This document shows, one piece after another, positions 12,201 to 29,881 of a DNA stretch of 32,382 nucleotides. The notes under the pieces are model-generated. The model saw nothing but the letters and a program-made list of their open reading frames with translations, was not told the origin of the DNA and did not search any database. Position numbers and translations under genes: made by a program. Positions within the stretch are counted from its first letter, which is position 1. Each line of letters opens with the position of its first letter. Source of the DNA: Saprospiraceae bacterium (lineage in GTDB: Bacteria; Bacteroidota; Bacteroidia; Chitinophagales; Saprospiraceae); NCBI GenBank assembly GCA_020628725.1, contig JAHDEO010000018.1, positions 1 through 32,382 of the forward strand. Reading direction: 5' to 3'.

Positions 12201-12752
12201 TGCTCTTTTTATCAATTCGGGTTCGTACTTCATCGGACTTTGCTCATGGGCAAAGAGCCAAAAATATTCCCGTGCGAGGTAAGTCGCACTACGTGTACCG
12301 TAGGTGTACGAAATACCCGTGTAGGTGGATTGCGTGGGCGTGGTGCGTTGCCATTCAACATCGGGTGTGGCGATAGCAGTAGTCGCATCGCTTACCATTT
12401 TATCCAAGTAAGGGTTATTGGTTTCGGTTAAAACAGGATGCAAAATCGCAAGGTGTTCGGCATTGGGATTTCTTTGAATGAAGTCGTCCGCAGGTTGGTA
12501 AAGCGCATTGAGGACATCGTTGATTAAATCTTCTGCTTCCGCATTATAGGCTACGGCTTCTGCGTTGGTTGCCCGTTCTAATGCCAGTTCTAATATTGCC
12601 TTTTTTACTTTTTCGGCTTGCGTACATTCAGGTAAGGAACTGACGACAATTTCTAATTGATTAATTTGCTCTGTAATTGATTGAGCATAAGAAACGTATG
12701 TCCAACTTAATAATAGGCAGGTAAGAATAGTTTTTATCAATGCATTTTTCAT
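8514..12752 (-). CDS. Large secreted alpha/alpha-toroid protein, putative polysaccharide lyase-like, with choice-of-anchor-D-like and beta-strand-repeat segments plus shared C-terminal module
   Basis: 1412 aa; signal peptide MKNALIKTILTCLLLSWTYVSYAQ; Trp/Tyr/His-rich helical N-half (HLGAPHNDWFDQFAIEMAFPTFYEIAEL, NYNIETARMLGILNIGLYLDD, MQRQDGAMPYHGDDRPSVNYHNVLYTTWLSIYEQ); ..FKITNPNDPILQLGG..FKVRFIPTVEGKYSAIVKI; MopE-like CTDGIDNDGDGLSDCDDPDC; module at C-terminus. Enzyme class is uncertain. Confidence 0.8.
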   Translation of the reverse strand: MKNALIKTILTCLLLSWTYVSYAQSITEQINQLEIVVSSLPECTQAEKVKKAILELALERATNAEAVAYNAEAEDLINDVLNALYQPADDFIQRNPNAEHLAILHPVLTETNNPYLDKMVSDATTAIATPDVEWQRTTPTQSTYTGISYTYGTRSATYLAREYFWLFAHEQSPMKYEPELIKRALRRMHTFADLVNINSRSHLGAPHNDWFDQFAIEMAFPTFYEIAELHPNLLLPSQRKSWDNMMKAARTRLFTFDNSFRYPWNYNIETARMLGILNIGLYLDDQVIIDRVIDHTDKAMRMQRQDGAMPYHGDDRPSVNYHNVLYTTWLSIYEQLEYEPLLEALQRSQWKGPTTGRTEEWWTSPFDKAFRWNIQKGTEAGNEAVATLTENPFVRWMIDRNQALTGAVSGKIGGRDNAVWYRPDISSQPLPDNYTIPDKNIGGPRAWYGEFTYAGAYRPNTPGNEGFTTLIGAMTVDSLDGRLNSILAEVTPRIWITPENEGDYSAWADLTENEVSATTISKNYSIGTSAHGISRRRGAYKGPSSDWQGRQMWIGLPDRLIGLVSTVPDVDSAKAYAINGAIRLISGGTTGAATLKVLENISPNHYRYGQLDIIVHDNTYASLTDTLKPYRTAALPATELIFSNRPTEPLPVGAEETFPLNTEYRFVVEIRTAWADTNEFNSINVLGNQDLIGLEAIGNNRSFQIWLNASSNDVECNPQRNRLPAGDDSFVLSNGILGRVPYQSTVPAQVTLVGGQHALVVVSPDAQDHNFGEASFSSMMNYADITVVGEKNFKRVPLNTPKEMTFKITNPNDPILQLGGSPKVEIEGDTAFSLIEDVDTTNLAYGDTTTFKVRFIPTVEGKYSAIVKIPTNVTGNELYEFKITGEGSGDIILIQNSAFGTSWDLASAWDDGQSAQAGKKYVVNRTENGISTLRTPTSSTAVFPGESLKIIGDGGLLLKGPNNGTIDVKQLIANYGYMSFGSGAVNYTWLGELILKETGLSIGSNSGGSLTFEGPVKGNGTLSINNVETTFNTGTWNGDISMSNGLLRFGYDITQGGAFIFTGGVFDINDRNHIFENLIINGVQMEAGVYTASDLGDKFTGNGTITIAPYTTAVCVDAVFEDIIIENTLTNCTDGIDNDGDGLSDCDDPDCAVFDTGNTCYYAYEYPDNNALCNCIDIQLQAYLEGTYDNTTEQMTTNLQSRGLLPGQTPVSGIVTPTPTGQPYQIAPWNYTGTEGIGWRDVHYAGNETDWILVSFRTGTAKNTEVAQTAALIMKDGRIKLIDRCVLTNSVTAPLYIVLEHRNHIGIMTPQPIDIVNGVLSYDFRTSDSYRDATSFGQKQLPNGEWAMFAGDANQMDFPSFDVNGTDKTEWFDSNGVFDYYLSPDFNLDGDVNGQDKSLWFENNGISSRVPK

Positions 12753-12851
12753 AATGTTTTATTAATTTTCGTTTGAATTAATCGGAAAACGATTTTGCAA
12801 ATTGTTTTGCCAATATTCGCAGGACGATTTATAAAATCGTTTTACAGTAGT

Positions 12852-13566
12852 TTACTTCGGCACTCGCGATGAAATACCATTATTTTCAAACCATAATGAC
12901 TTATCCTGTCCATTGACATCTCCATCCAAATTGAAATCGGGAGATAGGTAATAATCGAACACGCCATTAGAATCGAACCACTCGGTTTTATCCGTCCCCG
13001 TTATGTCAAAACTTGGAAAATCCGTTTGGTCAGCATCTCCGGCAAACATTGCCCATTCGCCATTGGGGAGTTGTTTTTGTCCGAAGCTGGTTTGGTCGCG
13101 GTAGCTGTCTGAAGTGCGGAAGTCGTACATCAAAATTCCCCCCACAATATTAACGGGTTGCGGCGTCATAATGCCGATATGGTTGCGGTGTTCTAAAACG
13201 ATATAAAGCGGACCTGTAATCGAAGAAGATAATGCACATCGGTCTATAAGTTCCACCACGCCGTCTTTCATTATCAGAGCTGCGGTTTGTGCAACTTCGG
13301 TGCTTTTTTCTATTCCTGTTCTGAAAGAAATCAATACCCAATCCGTTTCATCGCCTATGTAATCTGCATCTGTCCAACCTGCGCCTTCTGTGCCTGTGTA
13401 ATTCCACGGGGCAATTTGGTAAGGCTGTCCGGCTGGTGTTGGTGTGGCAAGTGGACTGACGGGTGTTTGTCCTGGCAATAATCCGCGTGAATGGAGGTTG
13501 GTGGTCATTTGTCCTGTATTATTGTCGTACGCGCCTTCGAGCCATGTTTGTAGCTGAACATCAATA
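12852..13566 (-). other. Shared C-terminal module (copy in metalloprotease)
   Basis: CIDVQLQTWLEGAYDNNTGQMTTNLHSRGLLPGQTPVS..LYIVLEHRNHIGIMTPQPVNI..SPDFNLDGDVNGQDKSLWFENNGISSRVPK. Confidence 0.9.
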
Positions 13567-16500
13567 CAGGGAATGGTCACGATTATATCTTGAGTGAATG
13601 TACATGTAGCGGTAGAAAATGTGACCGTATATGTACCTGCGGCAGCAACGGTGGTTTCTCTGGTATTTGCTGTGAAGCCGTTGGGTCCCATCCAACTCCA
13701 TGTTCCCGGTTCAAGATTGAAGTCAGCCGGACCAAATGTAACGGATTGCCCTAAAGATAAATCTATTTGGCTGGTTTGTTGCCAACCTTGGTTATCAATA
13801 TTTGCATAGGGAATGATGTAATTAAAACAGTTTACCGGATCGCATACGCCATTACTATCAACACCAATTGATGTACCTGTACAGTTGCAGTCACTGTCAT
13901 AAGCATCATTGATGGTGCAGTCGTCGCCGTTGTCGCAGGGAGTTCCTATATTGCAATCAGGTGTTACGATGATATTTTGAGTGAATGTACAGGTGCCATT
14001 GGAGAATGTAACCGCATATGTACCCGCAGTCGAAACGGTGATTTCTCTGGAACTTGCCATGAAGCCGCCGGGTCCTGTCCAGTTCCATGTTCCGGTTCCA
14101 AAATCCAGATTAGTCTGCGGACCGAATGTAACGGATTGTCCTACGAATAAATCTATTTCACAAGCTTGTTGCCAGCCTTGATTCTCAATATTGGTATAGC
14201 AAATGATGAAACCTCCGCAATTCACGGGGTCACAGTTGCCATTATTGTCAAGACCTGCGGGTGTTCCTATACAACCGCTACATTCAAATGTATCATTGCT
14301 TGTACATGAATCACCGTCGTCACATGGCATACCTAATATGGCATCATCCATTCCCTGACAAACATCCATTACATCACATGTACCGTCATTATCTTGGTCT
14401 TGAAATGTACCCGCACAAGTATCACAATCAATAAAGACATCATTTATTGTACAATCATCCCGGTCGTCACATGCGCCCTGACCGCAATCGGAGATTGTAA
14501 AATCGACTGACCAAGTGCAAGGTCCATATGTCATGGCGGCGGTATATACGCCGGGTTGGTCATAAGGCACTCTGAGTGAATAACCAATAGCACTAAATCC
14601 GTTGGGTCCGGTCCATAGCCATTTGTCGGGTTGATTCCACCATGTAGGCGGGAAGTCGGGGAAGTTTTCAGGATTATTGACCAATGGTTTTATATAGACT
14701 TCACCACTTGGCAGGAATATGTCGAATGTGCCACCTGACCAGCCTTGATTATTGATATTAAAGCTGGATACAATGGGGTTGAGTCCACATTCTACGATGG
14801 AAACTTCTTGGTTGAATGTACAAGCACCCTCGGTGTAAGTGGCAATGTAAGTACCTAATTCTGAAACGGTAATTTCTCTATTGGAAGATGTAAATCCGTT
14901 AGGTCCTGTCCATGACCAATTTCCGCTTGTCGGGGTGGGTGCGAGTGCTATGGATTGACCGGAAGTTACTGCTATCCAGCTTGTTTGTTCCCATCCCTGA
15001 TTGTCGATATTTGCAAAACTCTGTATGGGGTTTGGACAACCATTCATCGTTACTACTATTTCTTTGGTAAATATACAGGTTGCCTGAATGATACTAAGCG
15101 TATAGGTACCGGGGTCTGTGACAACGGTTTCTCTGCCTACGGCAGTAAAATTATTGGGACCTGTCCATGTATATTCAGCAACAAAACTGCTGATGTTAGA
15201 CGTTTGGAAATCTTGTATAGACGGTCCGAATCGAACGGTTTGTCCTGGAGAAATGTCTACTGTATCTGCTGCATACCACCCCGTTACACCTTCTATTGTA
15301 AGAAAAGGAATGATTGTTTCGTCGCAGGTATATACCCGCATTTCTGTGAAGACACTGCAACCGTCCTTAGTGTAAGTCGCCGTGTATGTTCCATCTTCTG
15401 CCGGTACGGTAATTTCTTGTTGATTTGAGCTAAAGCCATTTGGTCCTGTCCAAGACCATATGCCTCCCGGCAGGTTGTTTTCCGGTTTAAAATTAGCGGT
15501 TTCGCCGGGTGCAAGTCCTACGTGGCAGTTAGATGTCCAGCCCTCATTATTTACATTTGAAGCACATACAATTGATGTCAGTGGACAGGTATCCAATGTT
15601 ACAGTCATATCTTTGGAGTAGGTGCAGATACCGTCAGAAAAAGTAAATGTATAGACACCCGGTTCTGATACTTCGATGATTTTATTATTGGATGTAAAAC
15701 CATTCGGACCGGACCATGTACCTTCAGCGATGACAGGGTCAAATAGCACCGTTTCATCGGACCTTATGGCAACATCACAATTGCCTCCTTCGTCACCTGC
15801 CCAGCCTGCCCAGCCCCTTTGGGCGATATTGGCTCTGCAAATAATTGGGTTGGGATAACATTCATCCACATCACAAGTATTATTTTCGTTGCTGTCTATA
15901 CAATCTAATCCACAAGGTGTCAGGCAATCGGAAGTATAAACAGCATGTCTCATCAAATCTCCGGGCTGCTGCCCTAGTCCGAGGCTAATATCTCTCCCGC
16001 AGTAACTCATTAAAGTTCCGATATCACCATCAAGTACCGGATTGAAGGGGTCAAAACAAGCACCTGCCGACCAAGGACCGGGTACACTTCCGCAATCATC
16101 TAATTGCGTATTATTGCCATTCCAAAAACAGACATCTGTGTGAGGCGAACCGAGTACGTGCCCAATTTCGTGTGCCAAGACTCCGATTCCCTCCGCGTAT
16201 GTTATCACTCCGGTATCTTGATATTGAGAACCAATATAACTGCCACCGCCACCACCGCATAGTGGTCCGCCGGCAGCACCACCGCCACCACCGTAATTAT
16301 GACTCAGAAACATAATAAAGCTGCCTGTACGGGTGTCATTCCCAAGTATAAGATTATCATTGGTATCTTTGATAGTAACATGGTTTAATCTCATATTAAT
16401 ATGTTCATTGGCATAAATGAGTGTAACCTGATTGAAGAATGCAGCTAGGTAATTGGATAGGGCTATAGCGTCGTTGTTAAATACGTCATACAAAGTACCA

Positions 16501-17210
16501 TCTGCCCACAAGTGAACTTCTACGCAATTATTGGGATTGACGATTCCTGCCTGAACTTTCTTTTCAATATCATCTCTCTGCGCCATGAGTTGTTCTAAAT
16601 CCATTGGTGCATTGCAGACGAAATCAGGTTGTTCGGCGAGGTCTTTTTCATTATACAAAATGTAATTGTCGGAGTTTTTCATCTTGCTAAGGGTGTAGGT
16701 ATTACCTTCGGTGTTGATGATTCCGACGATTTCATTTTCAAAGATACTGACACTCACAGAGGAACTTTCATCGCCTTCCACAGTTCCCCAATAAAAAGCT
16801 CCCCAATCGTAGATGTTTTTCTTTTCGCCGGAGGGTGTTGGTACGTTGATTGAAGGAGATATAAACTCTACTTTTTTCAACAGTAAATTCAGCGTAGCGG
16901 CACTGGCTCTTGGTATGGAGAGTTTGAGTATATCGTTTTTCTTGCTTAGTATTTGTCTGTTGAATGATAAATCAAGATTCAAAAAATCCTTGTTGCCGTT
17001 TATTGCTTCGTTAATATTCTGCTTGCTGACCGTAGTGTTGTTGAATGGTTGTGATAAAGGAATAGCTTGGAGTGCTGCCGTTTCTTTATTGACCAATTCA
17101 CGCGCGTAGTTGTGGTGACTTAATGATTCTACTTGCCCGTTGGCAGTATTAATAAAAGTGCTAATCAATAGAATGATTAGATAGAAGCTTAGGTTGGATT
17201 TTTTTAACAT
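12852..17210 (-). CDS. Secreted reprolysin-like (metzincin, M12B-type) metalloprotease with seven Ig/PKD-like repeats, Cys/Asp-rich calcium-type segments and shared C-terminal module
   Basis: 1452 aa; signal peptide MLKKSNLSFYLIILLISTFINTANGQ; zinc motif HEIGHVLGSPHTD followed by MSYC Met-turn-like motif; repeats of (A/N)NI(D/E)NQGW..GQSVTFGP..GTWSWTGPNGFTS..REITV..GTYT.TYT..CTFTQ. Confidence 0.9.
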   Translation of the reverse strand: MLKKSNLSFYLIILLISTFINTANGQVESLSHHNYARELVNKETAALQAIPLSQPFNNTTVSKQNINEAINGNKDFLNLDLSFNRQILSKKNDILKLSIPRASAATLNLLLKKVEFISPSINVPTPSGEKKNIYDWGAFYWGTVEGDESSSVSVSIFENEIVGIINTEGNTYTLSKMKNSDNYILYNEKDLAEQPDFVCNAPMDLEQLMAQRDDIEKKVQAGIVNPNNCVEVHLWADGTLYDVFNNDAIALSNYLAAFFNQVTLIYANEHINMRLNHVTIKDTNDNLILGNDTRTGSFIMFLSHNYGGGGGAAGGPLCGGGGGSYIGSQYQDTGVITYAEGIGVLAHEIGHVLGSPHTDVCFWNGNNTQLDDCGSVPGPWSAGACFDPFNPVLDGDIGTLMSYCGRDISLGLGQQPGDLMRHAVYTSDCLTPCGLDCIDSNENNTCDVDECYPNPIICRANIAQRGWAGWAGDEGGNCDVAIRSDETVLFDPVIAEGTWSGPNGFTSNNKIIEVSEPGVYTFTFSDGICTYSKDMTVTLDTCPLTSIVCASNVNNEGWTSNCHVGLAPGETANFKPENNLPGGIWSWTGPNGFSSNQQEITVPAEDGTYTATYTKDGCSVFTEMRVYTCDETIIPFLTIEGVTGWYAADTVDISPGQTVRFGPSIQDFQTSNISSFVAEYTWTGPNNFTAVGRETVVTDPGTYTLSIIQATCIFTKEIVVTMNGCPNPIQSFANIDNQGWEQTSWIAVTSGQSIALAPTPTSGNWSWTGPNGFTSSNREITVSELGTYIATYTEGACTFNQEVSIVECGLNPIVSSFNINNQGWSGGTFDIFLPSGEVYIKPLVNNPENFPDFPPTWWNQPDKWLWTGPNGFSAIGYSLRVPYDQPGVYTAAMTYGPCTWSVDFTISDCGQGACDDRDDCTINDVFIDCDTCAGTFQDQDNDGTCDVMDVCQGMDDAILGMPCDDGDSCTSNDTFECSGCIGTPAGLDNNGNCDPVNCGGFIICYTNIENQGWQQACEIDLFVGQSVTFGPQTNLDFGTGTWNWTGPGGFMASSREITVSTAGTYAVTFSNGTCTFTQNIIVTPDCNIGTPCDNGDDCTINDAYDSDCNCTGTSIGVDSNGVCDPVNCFNYIIPYANIDNQGWQQTSQIDLSLGQSVTFGPADFNLEPGTWSWMGPNGFTANTRETTVAAAGTYTVTFSTATCTFTQDIIVTIPCIDVQLQTWLEGAYDNNTGQMTTNLHSRGLLPGQTPVSPLATPTPAGQPYQIAPWNYTGTEGAGWTDADYIGDETDWVLISFRTGIEKSTEVAQTAALIMKDGVVELIDRCALSSSITGPLYIVLEHRNHIGIMTPQPVNIVGGILMYDFRTSDSYRDQTSFGQKQLPNGEWAMFAGDADQTDFPSFDITGTDKTEWFDSNGVFDYYLSPDFNLDGDVNGQDKSLWFENNGISSRVPK
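13567..15852 (-). repeat. Seven ~80-aa Ig/PKD-like repeats, the last three separated by Cys/Asp-rich cassettes
   Basis: Repeat core W(S/L)WTGPNGF(T/S)..xREITV..GxYxxxxxxxxC occurs seven times; cassettes such as CDNGDDCTINDAYDSDCNCTGTS and CDDGDSCTSNDTFECSGCIGTP lie between repeats 5-6 and 6-7. Confidence 0.85.
16140..16172 (-). other. Metzincin zinc-binding motif HEIGHVLGSPH
   Basis: Reverse complement encodes HEIGHVLGSPH (HExxHxxGxxH). Confidence 0.95.
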
Positions 17211-17278
17211 GTGAAAATCGTTTTGTTTGATAATGTAGAATACTTTTAGGGAATAGCTTTCTTGTATGTAAAAATGCC

Positions 17279-18000
17279 TTACTTCGGGACTCTTGATGAA
17301 ATGCCATTATTCTCAAACCATAATGACTTATCCTGTCCATTGATGTCTCCATCCAAATTGAAATCCGGTGAGAAGTAATAATCGAAAATACCGTTATTAT
17401 CAAACCAGATGGTCTTATCCGTTCCGTTAATATCAAAACTTGGGAAATCATACTGGTCTGCATCTCCCGCAAATAGACACCAACTGCCTGTCGGGAGTTG
17501 CTTTTGCCCAAAACTCGTTTGGTCGCGGTAGCTGTCTCCCAAACGGAAATCATACACCAATACATTATTTATTACATCAATCGGTTGTGGCGTCATGATG
17601 CCGATGTGATTGCGATGTTCAAGTACAATATACAGTGGACTTGCTACATTGGAATTTAAAGCGCAACGGTTGGGAAATTCAATGCTGCCATCTTTCATCA
17701 ACAAACCTGCGGTCATGCCTACTTGGGTGCTTTTTGTTATGTCAGTTCTGAAAGATATCAACACCCAATCTGTCTCATCCCCCGTATAATCGGCATCTGT
17801 CCAACCTGCGCCTTCTGTACCTGCATAATTCCACGGGCTTCCACTATAAGGCTGTCCGGCTGGTGTTGGTGTGGCAAGGTTACTCGCCGGGGTTTGTCCG
17901 GGCAATAATTTTCTGGTGGAAACGAGGGTGTTACGCATCTCGCTTGTGGAAATATCATACGCTCCTTCGAGCCATGCGTAAAGCTCTATATCGACGCAAT
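17279..18000 (-). other. Shared C-terminal module (copy in second CotH protein)
   Basis: CVDIELYAWLEGAYDISTSEMRNTLVSTRKLLPGQTPASNLATPTPAGQPY..YYFSPDFNLDGDINGQDKSLWFENNGISSRVPK. Confidence 0.9.
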
Positions 18001-21000
18001 CGGGTACTACCACTACTTGCTTAAATAACACTTTTGTACATTCAAAATAATTGGTAATTAACTGGATATTATATGTGCCGGGATTTGCAAAATTGACAAG
18101 GGTAGAATCTGCATTATTATCTGTCGAAGTTGCGCCGACGATAAACCAAGTATATGTTACATCATCATCTGGAATATCTATCGTCAGAAGAGTATCTGTA
18201 CCTGAGTAAATGGTATCGGGGAAGATGATTTCCTGTTCCAAACAAGGTTCGTTTGCACGTCCGGGAGTGCCGTAAGCGGAGTTGATATTGGAAGAGGCTT
18301 CCCATGATTGTGCTAATACATTGTCGGAATTTGGTGTAATCAAAGACAGGGTTGGTCCGTTGCCGTCAGGAATGGTATCCCACGGGATTCGGTCATTATA
18401 AACGACATAATCCGAGAGGCATTTATTCTCATCGAAAAGCGAAACGCGCTCGCCTTTATTGCTGAGTCCGAAAACGAAATTCCCAAGATAATCATTCGTA
18501 GTGAGATGCGGAAAAATGCTTGTGAACATGGTGTCATTTTCCACCAAAATAAGAAAATCATCAGGTGCTATGATTGTTCCCGAAGGGAATATAAATTCAT
18601 TATTATTATCATAAAAAGTCCAATCGGATATATCGACGGGTGCGGAATTTGGATTGTAGAGTTCTACCCAGTCGCCGGGGTCGGTTACGCCATTATTTGA
18701 ATTATAATTAATTTCATTAATCACAATGGGCGTGGCGGCATTGGCGCAAAGTCGGGCGTTTGGCTGTCCGGGCGAACCACAAAGGTCGTCAGAGCGAAAC
18801 CAATTCAAAGGATCGGAATTGTCGAGGGAAGGGTCGCGCAATTCGAGCGAGGGACCGTTGCCGTCGGGGTCTTCGTCCCAGGGGTTTTTGTCATTATATG
18901 TGAGGGAGTCGATGATGTTTCCCTCAACATCTTCATAGACGAGTGTTTCGCCGTCGTTGCTGAATCCGCCTTTGAACTGACCATCGGGCATAAAGCCGTA
19001 GTGCAGGTTGAAGGTGTCTGCATTTTCGGCTAAAATGAGGTATTCGCCGGGAGCGATTTGGGCATTGAGGTCAAATTTGTAATTGATGCCGCAGGCAAAT
19101 TTGGTATCTGCCAAAGGAATGTTTTTTGTACCGTTATTATAAATTTCAATATAATCTAATTCATCGAAATACTGACTACAGGTATCATCTGCGTGATACA
19201 TAATTTCGTTGATCACCAAGCCATCATAATCAATATTGGTATAAAAACGACGCGGACACATGGCAGACCAATTTCCGTTGATTCTTACCCGCGCTTTGAT
19301 TTCGGTCACGCCATCGGGCAATGAAATACTACCCGAATAGGCTTGCGCCGAAGGTGAAACACCGCTACCCGTCACCTGAGGTCCGAATGTGACGGATTGC
19401 CCTGTCGATAATTGTACATCACAAGTGGGTTGCCAGCCCTGACCGGCAATATTGGCATAACAATCAACAGTGGGGTCGTCGGCACAACCGTCACCGTTTA
19501 CACGTACGTTTTTATGATAGATGCAGCCGTTGACAGTATAGATAACTGTGTATGTTCCGGCATCCGAAACAGTTATTTCTCTGTTATTGGAGGTAAAACC
19601 ATTCGGACCTCTCCACGACCATGTACCACCCGAAATATCAGCATTAGGTCCGAAGGTGACGGATTGCCCTGCCTGTAATTGTACATCACAAATGTTTTTC
19701 CAGCCCTGACCGTTGATAATAGCAAAACAGTTAATCGGGTCATCGCCACAGTTGTTGTTATTGTTTACTAACATACTGCCGGAGTAGCTGCAACCGCCTA
19801 CGTTGTAGTTAACTGTATATAAGCCCAAATCCGAAACGGTGATTTCTCTGGAGGTGGAGGTAAAGCCGTTGGGACCCATCCATGACCAAGTACCACCATT
19901 GACTAAGACATCCGGACCGATAGGGTCGGTACCATCGGTGGTGTAGTAAATCGTACCTGTATTATTGGGGTTGGTGAGAGTAATGGATGTACCGGAGCTG
20001 ACGGCACCGCCCGGCAAGCTGTATTCTACGGCATCCATGAGCGGGTATTGATTCATATATGCGTTTAGGTAGCTATCTTTCAAGAGGTTAAAACGATTGT
20101 AGAACCACCCGGAACTGACGAGATCTTGGCGATATTGGAGAAAATCATCATAGAGGTCATCTGCCCAACGGGCACATTCGGCAAGGTAGGCGAGGCTGTG
20201 TGCATCGAATATTTCGGTGTAATATTGTTCGGCATTGGCAGGATGAAGCGCACCGTCAGGCTCAATACAATTACATTGAAAATGGTCGGCAAATCGCCTT
20301 CTGAAATCGCTATTAGCTATGAGTGGTTCCCACATATCCTCATAATAAATAGATGTTGACGGATAATTATTGGTATAATACCAATCATTATCAAAAGAAG
20401 GTTCGATATCCCATATAAAAAACCGGAAGGGTTCGTTTGCCGTTGGATTGTCAATGGCGTAAGTATTCCAGGGGGTCCAGTCTCCGTTTGGACCGTATTG
20501 AGAGATGATCACCCAGTCTATAAAATGGTCAACATCGAGGTATTGCTCAATTGCCGGATAGTTGCCTACCTGAGATTCCATCAGGCGATAGGAGTCTGTT
20601 GTACCGTCAATTGATGTATCGGCTTTTATGACATTAAAGTCCTCTTTTTTACCCGAAAAGTAGGATTCTCCAAAGGAGTTTTCGGGACGCTCAGAAAGGG
20701 TGTAAACGCCCCAATAAACTGCATTGATATACACATGCACAAATCGTGTATGTACACCGTATTCGCTCATTTGTATTTGCCAATCTTTCAGGATTTTTTC
20801 ATGCATATTTTGTACGCCCCTTTGGTCAAGTGTCTCCTGTCCTCCTGCCCGCAGGTCAAATGAGTCGAACTCATCTACTGCTTCTTTGCCGAGAATAGGA
20901 TGTTTGAATTTTTTGGCACCATACTCTTCCCGAAATTTGAAGCGGTAGTTTTTCTTGTTGGCTTCAGGGCTTGTAAATGTCGTACCTCCGTAAGTTTGTA

Positions 21001-21559
21001 CACCGGAAGGCTTGCCATAGCTTTCATTGGTAGCTGCATCATAAAACTCTATATTACTTGGTTTTAGTTCGCCTTTGGTCGTATAGATATAGTTGTAATC
21101 TCCTTGTTCGAGACTGATAAAGAAAGCCGGAAGCGCAGTCAGAGCATCGTCGAGCAAATGCCCATATTGAGGGTCTGCTTGTATGGAAGTACTCATCCCC
21201 GTAGATGTTATCGGGAAGTTATTGATACCGTCAGGCTGTGTAATCACATCATTGATGAAGATATAAGTATGTGCAAATACGACTGATGTATCTATGCTAC
21301 TATACGCAATGGCTCTTACGGAGGTATTGGTATTTATCGGTATAGGAGTCGTGTAAATCTGCCCCGTCGAAACAGAAAGTGGCGCACCATTGAGGGCATA
21401 TCTGATTGTTGCACCTGTTATATCAGAATTTAATTCAAGGGAAAATGAATTATCGTAATATCCGCGCTCGTGGCTAAATTCTACATCATCAGCATTTACA
21501 AATAATGTAATGCACGAAAAAATAAATGTAAAAAGCATTGCTGTAATATAAAATCTCAT
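17279..21559 (-). CDS. Secreted CotH-kinase family protein with chitobiase-C-like, LTD, Ig-like and PKD-like domains and shared C-terminal module
   Basis: 1426 aa; signal peptide MRFYITAMLFTFIFSCITLFVNA; CotH region (DSFDLRAGGQE..RFVHVYINAVYWGVYTLSERPENSFGESYFSGKKEDFNVIKAD..FFIWDIEPSFDND); TIYYTTDGTDP; two LTD domains (LVINEIMYHADD.., IVINEINYNSNN..DWVELYNP). Confidence 0.9.
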   Translation of the reverse strand: MRFYITAMLFTFIFSCITLFVNADDVEFSHERGYYDNSFSLELNSDITGATIRYALNGAPLSVSTGQIYTTPIPINTNTSVRAIAYSSIDTSVVFAHTYIFINDVITQPDGINNFPITSTGMSTSIQADPQYGHLLDDALTALPAFFISLEQGDYNYIYTTKGELKPSNIEFYDAATNESYGKPSGVQTYGGTTFTSPEANKKNYRFKFREEYGAKKFKHPILGKEAVDEFDSFDLRAGGQETLDQRGVQNMHEKILKDWQIQMSEYGVHTRFVHVYINAVYWGVYTLSERPENSFGESYFSGKKEDFNVIKADTSIDGTTDSYRLMESQVGNYPAIEQYLDVDHFIDWVIISQYGPNGDWTPWNTYAIDNPTANEPFRFFIWDIEPSFDNDWYYTNNYPSTSIYYEDMWEPLIANSDFRRRFADHFQCNCIEPDGALHPANAEQYYTEIFDAHSLAYLAECARWADDLYDDFLQYRQDLVSSGWFYNRFNLLKDSYLNAYMNQYPLMDAVEYSLPGGAVSSGTSITLTNPNNTGTIYYTTDGTDPIGPDVLVNGGTWSWMGPNGFTSTSREITVSDLGLYTVNYNVGGCSYSGSMLVNNNNNCGDDPINCFAIINGQGWKNICDVQLQAGQSVTFGPNADISGGTWSWRGPNGFTSNNREITVSDAGTYTVIYTVNGCIYHKNVRVNGDGCADDPTVDCYANIAGQGWQPTCDVQLSTGQSVTFGPQVTGSGVSPSAQAYSGSISLPDGVTEIKARVRINGNWSAMCPRRFYTNIDYDGLVINEIMYHADDTCSQYFDELDYIEIYNNGTKNIPLADTKFACGINYKFDLNAQIAPGEYLILAENADTFNLHYGFMPDGQFKGGFSNDGETLVYEDVEGNIIDSLTYNDKNPWDEDPDGNGPSLELRDPSLDNSDPLNWFRSDDLCGSPGQPNARLCANAATPIVINEINYNSNNGVTDPGDWVELYNPNSAPVDISDWTFYDNNNEFIFPSGTIIAPDDFLILVENDTMFTSIFPHLTTNDYLGNFVFGLSNKGERVSLFDENKCLSDYVVYNDRIPWDTIPDGNGPTLSLITPNSDNVLAQSWEASSNINSAYGTPGRANEPCLEQEIIFPDTIYSGTDTLLTIDIPDDDVTYTWFIVGATSTDNNADSTLVNFANPGTYNIQLITNYFECTKVLFKQVVVVPDCVDIELYAWLEGAYDISTSEMRNTLVSTRKLLPGQTPASNLATPTPAGQPYSGSPWNYAGTEGAGWTDADYTGDETDWVLISFRTDITKSTQVGMTAGLLMKDGSIEFPNRCALNSNVASPLYIVLEHRNHIGIMTPQPIDVINNVLVYDFRLGDSYRDQTSFGQKQLPTGSWCLFAGDADQYDFPSFDINGTDKTIWFDNNGIFDYYFSPDFNLDGDINGQDKSLWFENNGISSRVPK
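19360..19920 (-). repeat. Ig-like WSWxGPNGF repeats interrupting a chitobiase-C-like domain
   Basis: ..TIYYTTDGTDP-[IGPDVLVNGGTWSWMGPNGF....LSTGQSVTFGPQVTGSG]-VSPSAQAYSGSISLPDGVTEIKARV.. Confidence 0.7.
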
Positions 21560-21877: not shown

Positions 21878-22598
21878 TTATTTCGGTACTCTTGATGAAA
21901 TCCCATTATTATCAAACCATAATGACTTATCTTGTCCGTTGATGTCTCCATCTAAATTAAAATCAGGCGAGAAATAATAGTCGAAAATGCCGTTATTATC
22001 AAACCAAATCGTCTTATCCGTTCCATTAATATCAAAACTTGGAAAATCAGATTGGTCGGCATCCCCTGCAAATAGACACCATTCGCCTGTTGGAAGTTGC
22101 TTTTGCCCGAAACTCGTTTGGTCGCGGTAGCTGTCTGACAAACGAAAATCATAAATCAGGCTGTCGTTGAGTATGTCGATGGGTTGTGGTGTCATGATGC
22201 CGATATGATTGCGATGTTCAAGGACAATGTACAGTGAATTTTCCGTTACATCATCGAGCGCACAACGGTTGGGGAGATGGATGCCACCATCTTTTTTCAA
22301 TAAACCCGCAGTCATACCAACTTCTGTACTTTTTTGAATATCCGTTCTAAAGGAAAGCAATATCCAGTCGGTTTCATCACCTGCATAATTGGCATCTGTC
22401 CAGTATGCGCCTTCTGTTCCATTATAATTCCATGGGGCTGTGTTATATGGTTGTCCGGAAGGTGTCGGGCTGACGAGATTGCTAATAGGTGTTTGTCCCG
22501 GCAATAGACCACGTTGGGTATTTAGGATTGTCGTCATTTCATTTGTATTGCTATCATAAGCTCCTTCGAGGTAAGCGTGTAATTGTATGTTGACGCAA
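21878..22598 (-). other. Shared C-terminal module (copy in PL8-like protein)
   Basis: CVNIQLHAYLEGAYDSNTNEMTTILNTQRGLLPGQTPISNLVSPTPSGQPYNTAPWNYNGTEG..SPDFNLDGDINGQDKSLWFDNNGISSRVPK. Confidence 0.9.
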
Positions 22599-25500
22599 TT
22601 CTTTTTAACGGTGAAAGTTCTTGAAGAACCGCCTTCCATGTATGTGTTAAAAGTGGTGTCGTCTCCATCGTTGCCGATGGTCAAATGATGAGGTGGATTT
22701 CCGTCGGGTAGCCATTCGCCGTCCATAGTGATGGTGATATTTTCATACAAGCTATATCCCCATAAGTCATCGCCAAGGTCAATATCTTTATATCTTGTGT
22801 CTGCATTTGTGATGGTTATTTCTAAAACATCGGGCGATATTTCTTTGACCAATAATACGCAATGATTATCCACTGCTTTGATATCTCCCACGTTTACTTG
22901 TTGACCATTTTCATTGTGAGCGACAATACCGTAGCTGTTGTTTAAATTGTTTTTGACGGCATGTAATTCGTCGGTTTGTGCGAGGATTTCAAATGGTGGT
23001 ATGGCGGACGTCATATCTGTCTCAAATGTTTGCATTTGTGTGATACTTGCTTCGGGCTTGACGATGTAAGTATAAGCTGCATTCGCAGGAGCATTACCGT
23101 GTGAGAGATATGCCGTGAGAAATGTTCCTGTGAGGTCATTTGTATTGGTAATGTCTTTATTGGTAACTTCTTCTCTTTTTATTTTTAAATGCTGATTATC
23201 ACGAATGTAATAACCAATATTAGTTTGTGTGAGTATCCAGTGATTATCCGTGATTTGTTGGTCAAAAGTATAATCCGTATTAATGGGAGTGGTATTATCC
23301 ACATAAAAAATATCATCAGTTACATTGCGAACTCGCTCTTGGCAAATGGTAGTTACGGTTTCCTCGTTAACGATATTGTTGATAGCCGACCCGATGCATA
23401 CAATATGGTCATCAAAGAAAAAATAAGATTTTTTGGCTTTTTGAGAATCCAGATTTGGATTGGGACCGCCATCAAGCGTGACTGTGAATATGCCGTTATT
23501 CTCCTGTGAAGCACCACCCACGAAAGTAGCATTGCTACGCCATTGTTTCCATTCGACGTGTGCCATATCATCTGTATTGGCAAAATTGACGCTCGTAGTA
23601 CCGGGCATCAGGCGATGGTCAAAGCCATTGAGTCCGTAATCTTGTCTTTGTTTAATTTTATCATAACGAAACCAATAATCTTTTACAATTTGCATGGCTC
23701 CATTGCCTATATAAGTCACCAAATCGTCGGAGCTTTCGCGCGCGTATTCGTACTTGCTATGTCCTTTTATAGCCACTAAAAAATCATTGCGTTTGTGCAT
23801 AGCACATGCGCCATTTTGAAAAATACGATTCGAACTAAGGTCAGTCAAAGGCGTTTCTCCCTGAGCCAGAAAATCATTATAAGTATCGGTCATCAAGCGA
23901 GAAAATTCGGGATAGGGTTGGAGATTTTCTATGGCATAAGTTGTTAAAAAACGTTGGATAGCTGCCGTGTCTTTTGTGCCATCCTCTCTACCGGCAAGTG
24001 ACAAAAGCCCGAAATCGCTATAACTTTGACCAGAACCGGGACCACCATAACGATATAAACTTCCTGATTTTGCGCTGGTAATGACAGGTACTACATTGAA
24101 CATCTCACGGTCAAACTTTGCAAATGCCGCATGGCGAACAATATCGTGCCCAATACTTCCGATCGCCCACGGTGTATCGTGCAAAGCGTATATCGTACAT
24201 GCCGAGGCTTCGATTGCCCGATACGCATATAAGTCCAACATGCCGGTATGATGATAGGCATTGCCATCCGATTTGTAACCATCGACTACACCGGGAGAAA
24301 TTCTAAAAGCAAACTCATCGCACCAATCCTTGAAGCGTTCCAGATTCGCTTTATTTCTGCGATAGTCTGAATCCATTATTGCTAATGCCACCATACTTCG
24401 TAGATTCATACGTAAGAAATCGACATTGGCACCGCGTTCATTGGCATAATCACTACGCCCAAAGTATCTGCATACAAAAGAGTAATCCAAATAAATACGA
24501 TTCATTCCCATGGTGATTATCCATTCTCGAATAAGTGTATCTGTCAATAGTCCGTCTGCTTTCAAAGGTGTACGCATGACAAATACAGATTCCAAGAATT
24601 TATTTCCACTCCAAAAAGAAGGCATGACATCTGTATAAACTGCGTATTCATAAAGGGCTCTGTACCAATCGTATAGTTGTTGTTTTTGATTGACGTCTTG
24701 CACTTGTCGGTACAATTGCGCCATTTCAAGTAGTCTTACCCCAAATGTGTTAATGGCATCTTGCGTGTCATTCAATAGTATGTTTTTAGCTACTATTGGA
24801 TGGCAATTTGGGTTGATAAAAAATTGGTTGTAGTATTCTTGAAGTATATTCATATCATCCATCGGTACGGTATCCAATACATTGTCAGCATTAAAATAGG
24901 CATCTAAGCGAGTAGCAATATCGGATATAGCACTGCTATCCGCTGTGCTGACCGTCACACTATTGAAATCAGGAATATTGTAATCTTGTGCTTCAAATTC
25001 AGGGGCTTTTCTTCCTCTTTCCCAGTAATCGACTGCGGAAAGTCTACTTTCTTTTCCTAAGAAAAATAAACCGATATATGCCTTGCCTGATTTGTTGGGG
25101 AAGACAATACGTACTTTATCAGGCTTGTTCGGAAAAAGGTTATTGCTGTGATTTAGTTCGATATTATTTTGAATGATAATTTTATCATTTTTTTTGGATT
25201 GTATGAGTACTGCGTATCGCCATCTTTGTTCATTTTGAGCATAAACGAGGTATTCCATCTCCACCGAGCCGTTTTCGATGAATTGTATTTTTATAGCATC
25301 ATCAGTTGCATCGGCTAAATCATCACTATAAAATGCAAGTCCAAAATACCCAAAGCTCCACATGCTTTCGCCCACATACTGATAAGGAATTTCCAAATAG
25401 CCATTATTTGAAAAATCTACACGCAAGGCATTTTCTTCATCAAAACGGATACTGTCGCTCCAAGTGAGTGTGACATTATTTGCACTGGCATCTATCTCAC

Positions 25501-25657
25501 TCAAATGGGTGCTGTCAAATGTAAACCAGCTTGTTTGGCTGGCAAAACCTATACTATCGCTACTACAAGTCTGCGAAAAAACCACTGTATTACAAATAGT
25601 GCATAAAACTAGCGTAGCAAGTTTTATATATCGGCAATGTAACTTTAAACACAACAT
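21878..25657 (-). CDS. Secreted chondroitin/hyaluronan lyase-like protein (PL8 family, chondroitinase ABC-like layout) with shared C-terminal module
   Basis: 1259 aa; signal peptide ..LATLVLCTICNTVVFSQ; N-terminal lectin-like lyase domain (ASQTSWFTFDSTHLSEIDASANNVTLTWSDSIRFDEENALRVDF); catalytic-region motifs SDGNAYHHTGMLDLYAYRA, YRYGGPGSGQSYSDFGLLSLAG, QRQDYGLNGFDHRLMPGTTSVNF, TFVGGASQENNGIFTVTLDG. Confidence 0.8.
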   Translation of the reverse strand: MLCLKLHCRYIKLATLVLCTICNTVVFSQTCSSDSIGFASQTSWFTFDSTHLSEIDASANNVTLTWSDSIRFDEENALRVDFSNNGYLEIPYQYVGESMWSFGYFGLAFYSDDLADATDDAIKIQFIENGSVEMEYLVYAQNEQRWRYAVLIQSKKNDKIIIQNNIELNHSNNLFPNKPDKVRIVFPNKSGKAYIGLFFLGKESRLSAVDYWERGRKAPEFEAQDYNIPDFNSVTVSTADSSAISDIATRLDAYFNADNVLDTVPMDDMNILQEYYNQFFINPNCHPIVAKNILLNDTQDAINTFGVRLLEMAQLYRQVQDVNQKQQLYDWYRALYEYAVYTDVMPSFWSGNKFLESVFVMRTPLKADGLLTDTLIREWIITMGMNRIYLDYSFVCRYFGRSDYANERGANVDFLRMNLRSMVALAIMDSDYRRNKANLERFKDWCDEFAFRISPGVVDGYKSDGNAYHHTGMLDLYAYRAIEASACTIYALHDTPWAIGSIGHDIVRHAAFAKFDREMFNVVPVITSAKSGSLYRYGGPGSGQSYSDFGLLSLAGREDGTKDTAAIQRFLTTYAIENLQPYPEFSRLMTDTYNDFLAQGETPLTDLSSNRIFQNGACAMHKRNDFLVAIKGHSKYEYARESSDDLVTYIGNGAMQIVKDYWFRYDKIKQRQDYGLNGFDHRLMPGTTSVNFANTDDMAHVEWKQWRSNATFVGGASQENNGIFTVTLDGGPNPNLDSQKAKKSYFFFDDHIVCIGSAINNIVNEETVTTICQERVRNVTDDIFYVDNTTPINTDYTFDQQITDNHWILTQTNIGYYIRDNQHLKIKREEVTNKDITNTNDLTGTFLTAYLSHGNAPANAAYTYIVKPEASITQMQTFETDMTSAIPPFEILAQTDELHAVKNNLNNSYGIVAHNENGQQVNVGDIKAVDNHCVLLVKEISPDVLEITITNADTRYKDIDLGDDLWGYSLYENITITMDGEWLPDGNPPHHLTIGNDGDDTTFNTYMEGGSSRTFTVKKNCVNIQLHAYLEGAYDSNTNEMTTILNTQRGLLPGQTPISNLVSPTPSGQPYNTAPWNYNGTEGAYWTDANYAGDETDWILLSFRTDIQKSTEVGMTAGLLKKDGGIHLPNRCALDDVTENSLYIVLEHRNHIGIMTPQPIDILNDSLIYDFRLSDSYRDQTSFGQKQLPTGEWCLFAGDADQSDFPSFDINGTDKTIWFDNNGIFDYYFSPDFNLDGDINGQDKSLWFDNNGISSRVPK

Positions 25658-25882: not shown

Positions 25883-26120
25883 CTATTTTTTAATTAATCG
25901 TTCGCTCCATATTTTACCTGCACCTCTGGCTTGAACAACATAAATACCGGAAGGCAAATCACCTATGTAAATTGGTTCCATAAATCCATCAGTTTTTACC
26001 ATCAGCAATTCACCTGTGATGGAGTAGATAGCAATTTGTTCTATCTCCTCTTGCAAATTATCACTCATTTCAATGCTAATTCTATCATCACTCGGATTAG
26101 GATAAATTTTAATTGCAGAC
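25883..26120 (-). other. T9SS type A sorting (C-terminal) domain
   Basis: IYPNPSDDRISIEM...GELLMVKTDG..LPSGIYVVQARGAGKIWSERLIKK matches the usual Por-secretion tail. Confidence 0.85.
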
Positions 26121-29100
26121 TCATCGGATTGGGATATTTTATTGCAAGCACCTCCGTAAGTCAAGACCAATTCCGGTGCATTTCCACTACTTTCTTTTGT
26201 ATGATAACGGATGTATTTATTATTGTCCGAAATAATGGCAAGGCTCACTGTGCCATCTCCCGCAGCTTCGCCTTGAACGGCACTTGTTATGTCTATTTCT
26301 GCCCATTGACCTGCTGCCACTGCAGTAAAATTGCTGAGACTCGTACCGCCGAATTGGTTGTTGTTCCAAGTCAAGCCGGATTCAGTCCAGTTGTCGGATG
26401 GCGCAAGTAAGAGTTCTTGTGCAACGCTTCCATTGCTATTAGAAGAAACTTTAATTCTGAATGTTGCACTTTGCAATTGAGCAGCATCGACTCCCGAAAC
26501 ATCAAATTTGAGGTATCCGTAGCGAGTGTATTTATCGCTGCCTCCTTTTTTGATGTGTATGGTTGTACTATTTCCATAATTATTATCGGCATAAGTGCCG
26601 CCTCTGATGAAGGTATCATCCGTAGGATTGAGTACATCCGTTGAAGCATTTCCACCGACAGGCGTACCTCCACCGCAATTGCAGTTCGCATCATATGTCT
26701 CACCTACAGTACAGGGATCGCCGTCATCACAACTTGCGTTAAGTGTACAATTGCCATTCGTATCATCGTTAGCATCACAAATGCCATCATTATCCGAATC
26801 TTGGAAAGTACCTACACAATTACAATTGGCATCGTAAGCGTCGCCAATTGTACATGCATCGCCATCGTCACAACTTGCGCCAAGTGTACAATCACCATTC
26901 GTCTCATCATCAGCGTCGCAAATACCATCATTATCTGAGTCCGGACATGGAGTAGGCTCGCAGTCATTATAAGTCAATGTCAATATCGGACCTTGACCGG
27001 ATTCGCGACTCCCATAAATGACATATTCTGTACCTGTACCTTCTAATAGCAATGAAATGGTTTTATCTCCATTCAAAGCAGATAATACGTCAGCAGAAAT
27101 ATCGACACTTGCGGTTGATACCGCATTGGAAACGTCAAAATTTGTAATCAATGATGAACTGCCCGGTTGATTGCTCCAAGTAATGCCGCTTTCAGTCCAA
27201 CTATCATCACTTAAGTGCGACAATGCTTGACTCACAGTACCGCTTGAATTATTGGTGACCGTAAGTTGAAGCGTAGCAGAGGCAAAATCCGTAGCATCAT
27301 AGCCTGTCAAATCGAATTTGATATAACTCTGTCTTGTATATTTCAAATTGGATGTTTTTTTCGTTGCTAATCCTCCTGTTCCGTAGTTGTTATTTTCATA
27401 AGAACCTCCACGTACAAAAGCGTCTGCTGCCGCAGCAAGGGAAGCATCTTCGACGCTAGTTGAGGTACCTTCACATACACAATTGGTGGTATAAACATCA
27501 TTGATTGTGCAATCACTTCCATCGTCGCAGGATGTACCTATCAGGTCATTATGGAGCGTCGGACAAATATCTACTGAATCATTGATGCCATCACCATCAC
27601 TGTCAGTATCATCACAAGGATCGGCAGGCGGCGTGTAACTTGCAGGATTGACAGGCACACTTCGGGTAGTTGAGGTACGAACCTCTATAAAACGATTCAT
27701 CATATCGTCTTTTCGAGTCGTATATGCCGGATCGTTGATGTAGTTGCCTGAGTCGTTTTCAGAGAGATTTGTACTCAAATCAAAAAGATACGTGGGATTA
27801 AAATCGGCATCAAGGTCAGCGTTACATTCAAAAATGAGCTTCCAATCGCCATCTCTGATGGTTGCCGTTCTCGGTCCGCTTGCTCCTTGGTTAATTATTT
27901 CGTTGCGTGGTTCGTAGCTATTATCTCCTAAGAGAAGTTGGAGAAAATTATGTGAATCTTTGGCTTCATTAGACGTAATAGCACCACCTGCTATCCCGGC
28001 AAAAGTAGCTACAAAGTCAGTTCCGGTAACCATGTGATCGGAAGTAGAGCCTGCCGGGACTACACAGGGCCAAGTCACTATCAAAGGTATTCTGTGTCCT
28101 CCCTCATAAGGATCTCTCTTGTCTCCGCGAAGGTTTCCGCTTGAATAATGTCCTACATCTTTTGCATAATTTAAGCCGCCATTATCAGAAGTAAATACAA
28201 TCACGGTATTTTCGTATTCACCATTTGCTTTCAAGGCATCTACGATTTTTTTGACTTCCCAATCAAATACTCTAATCATATCTGTAAGCGGATCCGGTGT
28301 TGTTCCTGCATACGCTTCGCCTTCGATAAAGTCCGGCGCGGTGTGAGGAATGTGAACCGAAGTAGCAGAATAGTATAGGAAGAATGGTTCGGGTTGTTGG
28401 GAGGCATTATTGATGAAATTGACGGCTTTATTAGCCAAAATTTCATTCATATCATAGGCGTTCCAATTTGAGTCACCGGGTCCTTCGCCCTTAGCACTCA
28501 GTTGAAGAGGGTCAATGTTGGTTTCATCAAGATGGATAATATCCGAATTAGCTCCTAATGGATACCATTGACCGTTTTCGTATGCCAAATAGCTTGGTCC
28601 CTGTATGCCATGAGGGAGGGTAAAATCATAATCGAAACCCAAATCGTTCGGATTATTGCTGACCCAAGTATTGAAGTCAACTTGCCCAAGCGCGTTTATC
28701 TCCTTTCCTCTGTAAATATTATTGGAATTTAACTCATAATAATCTCCTCCAAAATGCCATTTACCGATAAATCCTGTATGATAACCTTCACGCTTTACTG
28801 CCTGTCCGATAGTAATATCTGAATCGGTCATAGTATTATCATCAAAATGTCCCCAGATACCACCGGGTCTTGAAGAACGAATATTATAATTTCCGGTCAT
28901 TACGGCATATCTCGAAGGCGCGCACACAGCAGCAGGCGAGTGTGCATCGGTAAACCACATCCCCTCATCAATAAGTGCCTCAATATTGGGCGTAGGGGCT
29001 CCTCCCGGAACGCCTCTGGTTTGCAGGTGATAACTACTAATATCACTACGACCAAAGTCATCCGCAAAGATGAAAACGATATTTGGTCGGTCTTGTCCCA

Positions 29101-29158
29101 TAAGGACTGAAGCCAAAGTCATTAAGGCAATTACAATAAATGTTGTTTTATTTTCCAT
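25883..29158 (-). CDS. Secreted sulfatase with two DNRLRE/CBM96-like domains, Cys/Asp-rich calcium-type repeats and T9SS type A sorting domain
   Basis: Start preferred at 29158 (MENKTTFIVIALMTLASVLMGQDRPNIVFIFADDFGRSD, signal peptide); the ORF track start at 29215 adds 19 residues before it. FGly motif CAPSR; sulfatase signatures GKWHFGG and DNGG; C-terminus IKIYPNPSDDRISIEMSDN..GELLMVKTDG..LPSGIYVVQARGAGKIWSERLIKK. Confidence 0.93.
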   Translation of the reverse strand: MENKTTFIVIALMTLASVLMGQDRPNIVFIFADDFGRSDISSYHLQTRGVPGGAPTPNIEALIDEGMWFTDAHSPAAVCAPSRYAVMTGNYNIRSSRPGGIWGHFDDNTMTDSDITIGQAVKREGYHTGFIGKWHFGGDYYELNSNNIYRGKEINALGQVDFNTWVSNNPNDLGFDYDFTLPHGIQGPSYLAYENGQWYPLGANSDIIHLDETNIDPLQLSAKGEGPGDSNWNAYDMNEILANKAVNFINNASQQPEPFFLYYSATSVHIPHTAPDFIEGEAYAGTTPDPLTDMIRVFDWEVKKIVDALKANGEYENTVIVFTSDNGGLNYAKDVGHYSSGNLRGDKRDPYEGGHRIPLIVTWPCVVPAGSTSDHMVTGTDFVATFAGIAGGAITSNEAKDSHNFLQLLLGDNSYEPRNEIINQGASGPRTATIRDGDWKLIFECNADLDADFNPTYLFDLSTNLSENDSGNYINDPAYTTRKDDMMNRFIEVRTSTTRSVPVNPASYTPPADPCDDTDSDGDGINDSVDICPTLHNDLIGTSCDDGSDCTINDVYTTNCVCEGTSTSVEDASLAAAADAFVRGGSYENNNYGTGGLATKKTSNLKYTRQSYIKFDLTGYDATDFASATLQLTVTNNSSGTVSQALSHLSDDSWTESGITWSNQPGSSSLITNFDVSNAVSTASVDISADVLSALNGDKTISLLLEGTGTEYVIYGSRESGQGPILTLTYNDCEPTPCPDSDNDGICDADDETNGDCTLGASCDDGDACTIGDAYDANCNCVGTFQDSDNDGICDANDDTNGNCTLNASCDDGDPCTVGETYDANCNCGGGTPVGGNASTDVLNPTDDTFIRGGTYADNNYGNSTTIHIKKGGSDKYTRYGYLKFDVSGVDAAQLQSATFRIKVSSNSNGSVAQELLLAPSDNWTESGLTWNNNQFGGTSLSNFTAVAAGQWAEIDITSAVQGEAAGDGTVSLAIISDNNKYIRYHTKESSGNAPELVLTYGGACNKISQSDESAIKIYPNPSDDRISIEMSDNLQEEIEQIAIYSITGELLMVKTDGFMEPIYIGDLPSGIYVVQARGAGKIWSERLIKK
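26151..26645 (-). other. DNRLRE/CBM96-like beta-sandwich domain 2 in sulfatase
   Basis: DDTFIRGGTYADNNYGNST..TRYGYLKFDVSGVD..NWTESGLTWNNNQFG..APELVLTY. Confidence 0.75.
26965..27455 (-). other. DNRLRE/CBM96-like beta-sandwich domain 1 in sulfatase
   Basis: ADAFVRGGSYENNNYGTGG..TRQSYIKFDLTGYD..WTESGITWSNQPG..GPILTLTY. Confidence 0.75.
28910..28924 (-). other. Sulfatase formylglycine motif CAPSR (C-x-P-S-R)
   Basis: Reverse complement tgcgcgccttcgaga = CAPSR within SPAAVCAPSRYAVMTG. Confidence 0.9.
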
Positions 29159-29238
29159 ATGTTTTTGAAATAAGAGAGAGGTGGTTGAATATTTCCTCTC
29201 GTTAATGTTGTTCATAAATAAAAAAAATCTAACGCGAG

Positions 29239-29607
29239 TCCACCCCCAGCCCTCTCCAAAGGGCAGGGGTGATTGGTTCTGAATGAAAAATCATTTTCCT
29301 CAAAATATAATTTTGTCACGAGTCCCAACGGGACGACATATTATAACAATGGGTGTAAGCCCATTGCTCGAAATAAACCTACTTCCTTAGCCCTGAAAGG
29401 GCGGTATAGCGTGGAATTTCGCCCTTTCAGGGCTGATAAAGCTCCTTGTTTTTATCTTGGGGCTTACACCCCAAGTTAGTAGATTTTGCCCCGTTGGGGC
29501 TTGAGATAAAATAATATTTATCTGAAATTCAGAACCAATCACCCCTGCTCCAAAGGGGGACATATACTCGCGATAATCTCCCCCTTTGGAGCAGGGCTGG
29601 AGGTGGA
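29239..29607. repeat. Nested inverted-repeat element containing six short palindromes in mirrored order (MITE/REP-like)
   Basis: 21-bp perfect IR caggggtgattggttctgaat (29264-29284) / attcagaaccaatcacccctg (29527-29547); 16-bp IR ctgctccaaaggggga (29545-29560) / tccccctttggagcag (29579-29594); internal palindromes at 29321-29334, 29347-29366, 29389-29402, 29421-29434, 29456-29475, 29488-29500. Confidence 0.8.
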
Positions 29608-29881
29608 AAACGCATAACTCATTCTTATTTATGAACATCATTATTGGTTTAACAATTTTCAGTTTTATAAAAAAGTGTGCAAAGAAATTCATTCTATCGA
29701 AAAATAGAATGAGCAGCGATTGTCGAATTGTACATTGCCAATTCGCTATCTTCAGAAAAATAAAGGCTGTGGATTCGGTGCGCGTGACTCAAAGCAGCTA
29801 TTAGCACTAAAACTTCATTGAGTGGATGTTTGTGAATGAGAAATGAATTGAAATGCGTCCACGATAAAAAGGGTACTACAT

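Follow-up and report, generated by a model that had tools for sequence, protein, structure and literature searches.

What is the nested palindrome that lies 5' of a sulfatase gene in a genome of the Saprospiraceae, and which kind of enzyme could have moved it? The locus belongs to a stretch of 32,382 nucleotides, hereafter called the window, and a sequence-only reading had described it as six short palindromes in mirrored order within longer inverted repeats, REP- or MITE-like, just upstream of the sulfatase. The position is as described, the element being 5' of the gene, with the sulfatase ORF opening at 29215, within the outer repeat; given a signal-peptide-like start (MENKTTFIVIALMTLASVLMG) 19 codons inside the ORF (29156-29215), the true start is probably 29158 and not 29215. 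As to the wider surroundings, three successive minus-strand ORFs of 1412, 1452 and 1426 aa, alike in size, occupy 8514-21559 and adjoin a polysaccharide lyase of family 8 (21878-25657) and the sulfatase, which carries a CBM96 (25883-29215); the presence of lyase and sulfatase suggests a glycosaminoglycan-use locus.

The 21-bp perfect inverted repeat reported earlier was confirmed (Table 1), as were the arms beyond it (29239-29253 / 29593-29607, 93%), and the outermost pair of arms listed in the table is additional to these. All six mirrored palindromes were found as well, but A and A', and likewise B and B', are homologous and not identical: the hairpin order is mirrored because a single unit occurs twice in the core, the second time inverted, with arms 29303-29362 / 29460-29519 being 77% complementary. 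Folded as single-stranded DNA, 29203-29643 reached -117.1 kcal/mol, compared to -47.1 +/- 4.5 kcal/mol for dinucleotide shuffles (z = -15.6), and the nested palindrome is therefore not due to chance; the core folded alone gave z = -6.8. The region is not one large cruciform element. It consists of three independent repeats in nested layers, namely the core within a MITE-like element (T), and T within an older hairpin repeat.

Table 1. Features of the nested palindrome, in window positions
Feature	Positions	Strand	Description
Outermost inverted-repeat arm, left (left end of outer hairpin repeat)	29203-29224	+	TAATGTTGTTCATAAATAAAAA; same end in uninterrupted L008, L013, L053
Outer hairpin repeat, left arm	29239-29263	+	TCCACCCCCAGCCCT CTCCAAAGGG; final 10 bp are the first target duplication copy
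Direct repeat, copy 1	29254-29263	+	CTCCAAAGGG; target-site duplication of T
T, left terminal inverted repeat	29264-29284	+	CAGGGGTGATTGGTTCTGAAT; perfect 21-bp pair with 29527-29547
Core	29321-29501		two mirrored copies of a ~85-nt unit: hairpin A, 12-nt tail, hairpin B, ~20-nt spacer, hairpin C
Core half 1	29321-29402	+	A 29321-29334, tail GACATATTATAA, B 29347-29366, spacer, C 29389-29402
Core centre	29403-29420		18 nt separating C from C'; position of tnpA in complete elements (compared: L187, L081)
Core half 2, mirrored	29421-29501	-	C' 29421-29434, spacer, B' 29456-29475, tail, A' 29488-29500
T, right terminal inverted repeat	29527-29547	-	21-bp pair
Direct repeat, copy 2	29548-29557	+	CTCCAAAGGG
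Outer hairpin repeat, right part	29548-29607	+	CTCCAAAGGGGGACAT...ATCTCCCCCTTTGGAGCAGGGCTGGAGGTGG; copies L008, L013, L014, L018
Outermost inverted-repeat arm, right	29622-29643	-	TTCTTATTTATGAACATCATTA; 22 nt, 91% complementary with 29203-29224

Copies were counted by sequence searches of genomes, the source genome (G000) being assembled in 683 contigs. The element is multicopy there, with homologues found and not a single isolated palindrome: in a search with the whole element, many contigs proved to carry a complete or partial copy, the best being on C640 (88% over 325 bp), C391, C392, C306 and C20. Several of these copies are the A-B-C-C'-B'-A' part alone, and the core is therefore an independent unit. 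About nine mirrored pairs were found in the source genome and about fourteen in a sister species (G003). One apparent mirrored pair is an assembly palindrome, as follows from contig C652 (L221, 1-17970), whose ORF list is mirrored about its middle and whose contents are counted double by the artefact; what looked like a 12.5-kb 'composite transposon' on this contig, bounded by inverted units, was rejected since the mirrored ORFs reflect a palindromic contig.

The proposal of a Y1 transposase acting in trans was the right lead in that the ends of the element are those of Y1 (HuH) transposase elements, but the kind of transposase is IS200-like subclass 1.2 and not the REP-associated class 2 TnpA (RAYT). 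Among the IS200-like Y1 genes of the source genome, four (L032-L035) carry the subclass 1.2 signature Y---Q--HH (motif YxxxQxxHH) and are flanked by small palindromes with an order and spacing like those of the window, most clearly at L035. Elsewhere in this genome (L036, C380:13221-16460) a Y1 (HuH) transposase-like stretch occurs within a single frame of more than 1000 residues that is otherwise DNA methylase/restriction-like (SGAFLNQAL ... NPPYG), a possible domain insertion. According to a survey in 2018, subclass 1.2 TnpA genes generally have no typical terminal secondary structures, and they lack the properties of insertion sequences (PMC6006769). When the L032-L035 proteins were used to scan the genome collection, 80 loci were recovered from Bacteroidota, Planctomycetota, Verrucomicrobiota, Acidobacteriota, Chlamydiota, KSB1, Hydrogenedentota and others. 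The TnpA matches solved IS200/IS605-type transposase structures (e.g., 2xm3; IS608 enzyme 2a6m), and its HuH and tyrosine motifs are kept.

Perfect hairpins (stem of at least 7) occur at ~5 per kb within 200 bp on either side of tnpA versus ~0.3 per kb farther off. The two flanks are inverted copies of each other: at 58 of 72 loci, the upstream flank aligned with the reverse-complemented downstream flank scores higher than a distal control. Direct-orientation alignment of the flanks also beats the control in 39 loci, probably because many loci hold several units. The unit that recurs at these loci comprises A (a hairpin of 13-17 nt), a tail of 10-13 nt, B (a hairpin of about 19-20 nt), about 20 nt, and C, and its end is often only a few bases away from tnpA. 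Complete elements have the order A-tail-B-spacer-C-tnpA-C'-B'-tail-A', with the ends mirrored, and A-B-C ends adjoin 55 of the 80 subclass 1.2 genes. A different type of end was seen at L190 (G005:C162:36100-38600), where a Y1 gene with the Y---Q--HH signature has a long near-perfect hairpin with CACAGGGTTTAAACCCTGTG on either side. Units and tnpA co-occur within the order: of 100 genomes, 34 had both, 7 units only, 20 tnpA only and 39 neither (Fisher p = 1.6e-6, the species not being independent); as 20 of the 54 tnpA-bearing genomes had no unit match, recognisable ends are not a feature of every subclass 1.2 gene.

A covariance model (R1) was built from 29 aligned units flanking subclass 1.2 tnpA genes, none of them from the source genus. 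A mechanical three-hairpin scanner with G-T pairs had been too loose, giving 152 background matches and several false ones in the window, and the covariance model was used instead. In the window, R1 (cmsearch) matched the two core halves, in opposite orientation, and nothing else over the 32 kb: the minus-strand match spans 29413-29501 (63.5 bits, E 4.7e-17), the plus-strand match 29321-29410 (58.3 bits, E 1.4e-15). Among 55 tnpA loci outside the training set, 31 had an adjoining unit, and of 44 adjacent matches 42 had the mirrored orientation that was expected; only 2 of 81 R1 matches lay more than 600 bp from tnpA. Given that the training units were picked for their stems, compensatory changes (covariation) in A2 are not independent evidence, and with these set aside it is the held-out placement and orientation that we take as evidence.

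The source genome holds 22 unit matches at E<=1e-4 besides its four subclass 1.2 tnpA genes, and in sister species G003 a complete element is preserved (L187: A-B-C, tnpA, C'-B'-A'). Gene-less G003 cores of about 166-193 bp align to the L187 end units at up to 82-87% identity (best 85/104 upstream and 78/90 downstream). We consider it very probable that the core in the window, which is nested in T and the outer repeat, derives from a subclass 1.2 HuH (Y1) transposon as a gene-less, non-autonomous form that would be moved in trans.

Half 1 of the core (29321-29366, minus strand) also passes the Rfam cut-off for Acido-Lenti-1 (RF01687), with 37.3 bits versus 37, and half 2 (29456-29501, plus strand) scores 25.9 bits, below it. 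In 2010 this motif, known from Acidobacteria and Lentisphaerae, was rated 'probably' RNA with unknown function (PMC2864571), and in 2026 little was still known of it, a possible regulation of protease genes in Tannerella being considered (PMC13298647). Together with the location 5' of the sulfatase gene, the match and the 2010 rating favor a structured RNA, under which reading A-B would either be the small RNA of Acido-Lenti-1 or control the sulfatase gene as its leader or terminator. We regard this as unlikely, since the unit is inverted around tnpA, occurring on both sides and both strands, since A, B and C lack a T-run terminator (apart from one weak match), and since the surroundings of the dispersed copies are unrelated. 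The units may nonetheless be transcribed and have a role as RNA as well. An Rfam scan of 60 tnpA loci returned 26 Acido-Lenti-1 matches at the cut-off, 25 of which lie within ~510 bp of the gene, and otherwise two tRNAs only. Acido-Lenti-1 has a match in 22 of 148 genomes of the phylum. When the test was reversed, starting from 30 Acido-Lenti-1 loci in Bacteroidota, a subclass 1.2 gene lay no more than 1.5 kb away at two distinct sites only (L275/L295 and L283), as expected if most copies are gene-less; this reverse test alone would not have exposed the link between Acido-Lenti-1 and tnpA. We think it probable that subclass 1.2 TnpA is the enzyme of multi-phylum single-strand transposons that have mirrored ends and abundant gene-less derivatives, and that Acido-Lenti-1 is their outer end module (A-B) and not a regulatory RNA.

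The REP/MITE-like character noted earlier stands as far as the element is multicopy and built of Y1 (HuH) element ends, but it is not tied to the REP-associated class 2 TnpA. That the core could be a canonical REPIN/BIME moved by class 2 TnpA-REP (RAYT) is suggested by its being an inverted doublet of small palindromes, multicopy and intergenic, and by the class 2-like Y1 genes present in the genome (L037-L039). This is nevertheless very unlikely, as R1 found no units at L037, L038 and L039 or at two other Y1 genes of the genus (L066, L067), different palindromes adjoin L038 and L039, and the units surround subclass 1.2 genes instead. The GTAG/CGTC tag is also missing from its canonical place in the window, where ATAA precedes B in half 1; GTAG before B is present in units of some other phyla. 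The palindromes of L038 and L039 (G000:C66 and C522; RAYT-type) are GCGAGC.../GCTGGAAGC and CACAGGCTTCCAGCCTG, flanking both sides.

Target-site duplication was examined, as the sequence-only reading had proposed, and the 10-bp direct repeat CTCCAAAGGG flanks the middle element T. T accordingly has the hallmarks of a DDE-type MITE, a 21-bp terminal inverted repeat and a target duplication, an assignment that concerns layer T only. Direct repeats of 9-10 bp flank T exactly in the window and in G003:C85 (CCTTTGGAG), and near-matching ones do so on C640, G001:C246 and G003:C41. In these cases T has a third repeat as its target, namely the stem of CCACCCCC...CTCCAAAGGGGGA...TCCCCCTTTGGAG...GGGTGG; the window copy of this repeat has GTTCATAAATAA as its outermost ends, and the arms 29540-29563 / 29576-29599 in its right part are 92% complementary. 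With T and one copy of CTCCAAAGGG removed, the window is colinear with uninterrupted repeats in the source genome (L008, L013) and sister species (L044, L053), and from this comparison the outer repeat came first, with T later entering its stem. Repeats apparently insert again and again into the hairpins of other repeats. The cargo of T differs between genomes, as observed for the palindromes in L048/L263 (G019) and L252 (G003:C83).

The 21-bp terminal inverted repeat and the 9-10-bp direct repeats could also be taken to mean that 29203-29643 is a single DDE-type MITE, its inner palindromes being incidental. That is highly improbable, because the layers occur apart: in both G000 and G003 the core recurs at many sites that lack T, T is empty of the core in G019 (e.g., C44, C59) and holds palindromic cargo of an unrelated kind in G003 (C118, C83), and the outer repeats are uninterrupted elsewhere. 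An assembly or chimera artefact of a fragmented genome, for which C652 shows that assembly errors exist, is hardly credible when the nested arrangement recurs on C640 and in sister species G001 (L046).

How a gene-less subclass 1.2 element would have moved, where it would be cut and which TnpA would have acted on the window copy we infer by analogy. In the core, 18 nt between C and C' stand in place of the tnpA gene. When the locus becomes single-stranded, for instance as lagging-strand template, the hairpins would fold, a TnpA encoded elsewhere in the cell would bind the end unit and cut beside it, and the element could be re-inserted elsewhere with no target duplication. IS200/IS605 and TnpA-REP enzymes are believed to work in this way, without target duplication, and going by what is established for IS200/IS605-type enzymes, the hairpins would be read in single-stranded DNA and the core moved in trans. 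T, a separate element in which the core resides, duplicated its 10-bp target within the older hairpin repeat. At the edges of core copies outside T no target duplication was seen by eye, no insertion polymorphism of the core itself was observed, and a search of five congeners for the sulfatase gene, as an orthologous empty site, gave no match (the search had no positive control). At L032-L035 the R1 scores are only 12-31 bits; these genes thus have no units close to those of the window, none of the four could be paired with the window copy, and the cognate enzyme may have been lost from the source genome.

The units provide a concrete DNA substrate to test for a transposase subclass that had no recognised one, with complete and gene-less forms sharing genomes. 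For an orphan 'RNA' family of 2010, still read as a possible regulator, an explanation is offered, and with the covariance model such palindromic repeats can be annotated as a class of their own in genomes of Bacteroidota, Planctomycetota and related phyla. In the literature searched, which included few subscription journals and did not cover ISfinder, no class of HuH elements was found described whose ends are mirrored and have three hairpins each, nor any occurrence of the C hairpin sequence.

Among known systems, the IS200/IS605 family has a single subterminal hairpin at either end, and its two ends are not inverted versions of each other. Its MITEs, as well as PATEs, resemble the core in being gene-less and bounded by hairpins that a Y1 transposase binds, but in the core each end is a three-hairpin unit, inverted relative to the other. 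With REPIN/BIME repeats (TnpA-REP, RAYT) the core shares an inverted pair of small palindromes, intergenic and dispersed, for which movement in trans by a Y1 enzyme has been proposed; it differs in having three hairpins per half in fixed order, in having no canonical GTAG/CGTC tag in the window, and in that the enzyme is of class 1.2, with its gene inside the mirrored pair. The 46-nt model of Acido-Lenti-1 corresponds to the A-tail-B part of the unit, although that motif was described as a probable RNA and appears here as transposon-end DNA in many phyla. Finally, the genes with matching flanks carry the Y---Q--HH signature and HuH motif of the subclass 1.2 TnpA already surveyed (PMC6006769), whereas here they come with mirrored A-B-C ends and gene-less copies, and their range reaches Planctomycetota, Verrucomicrobiota, Acidobacteriota and others.
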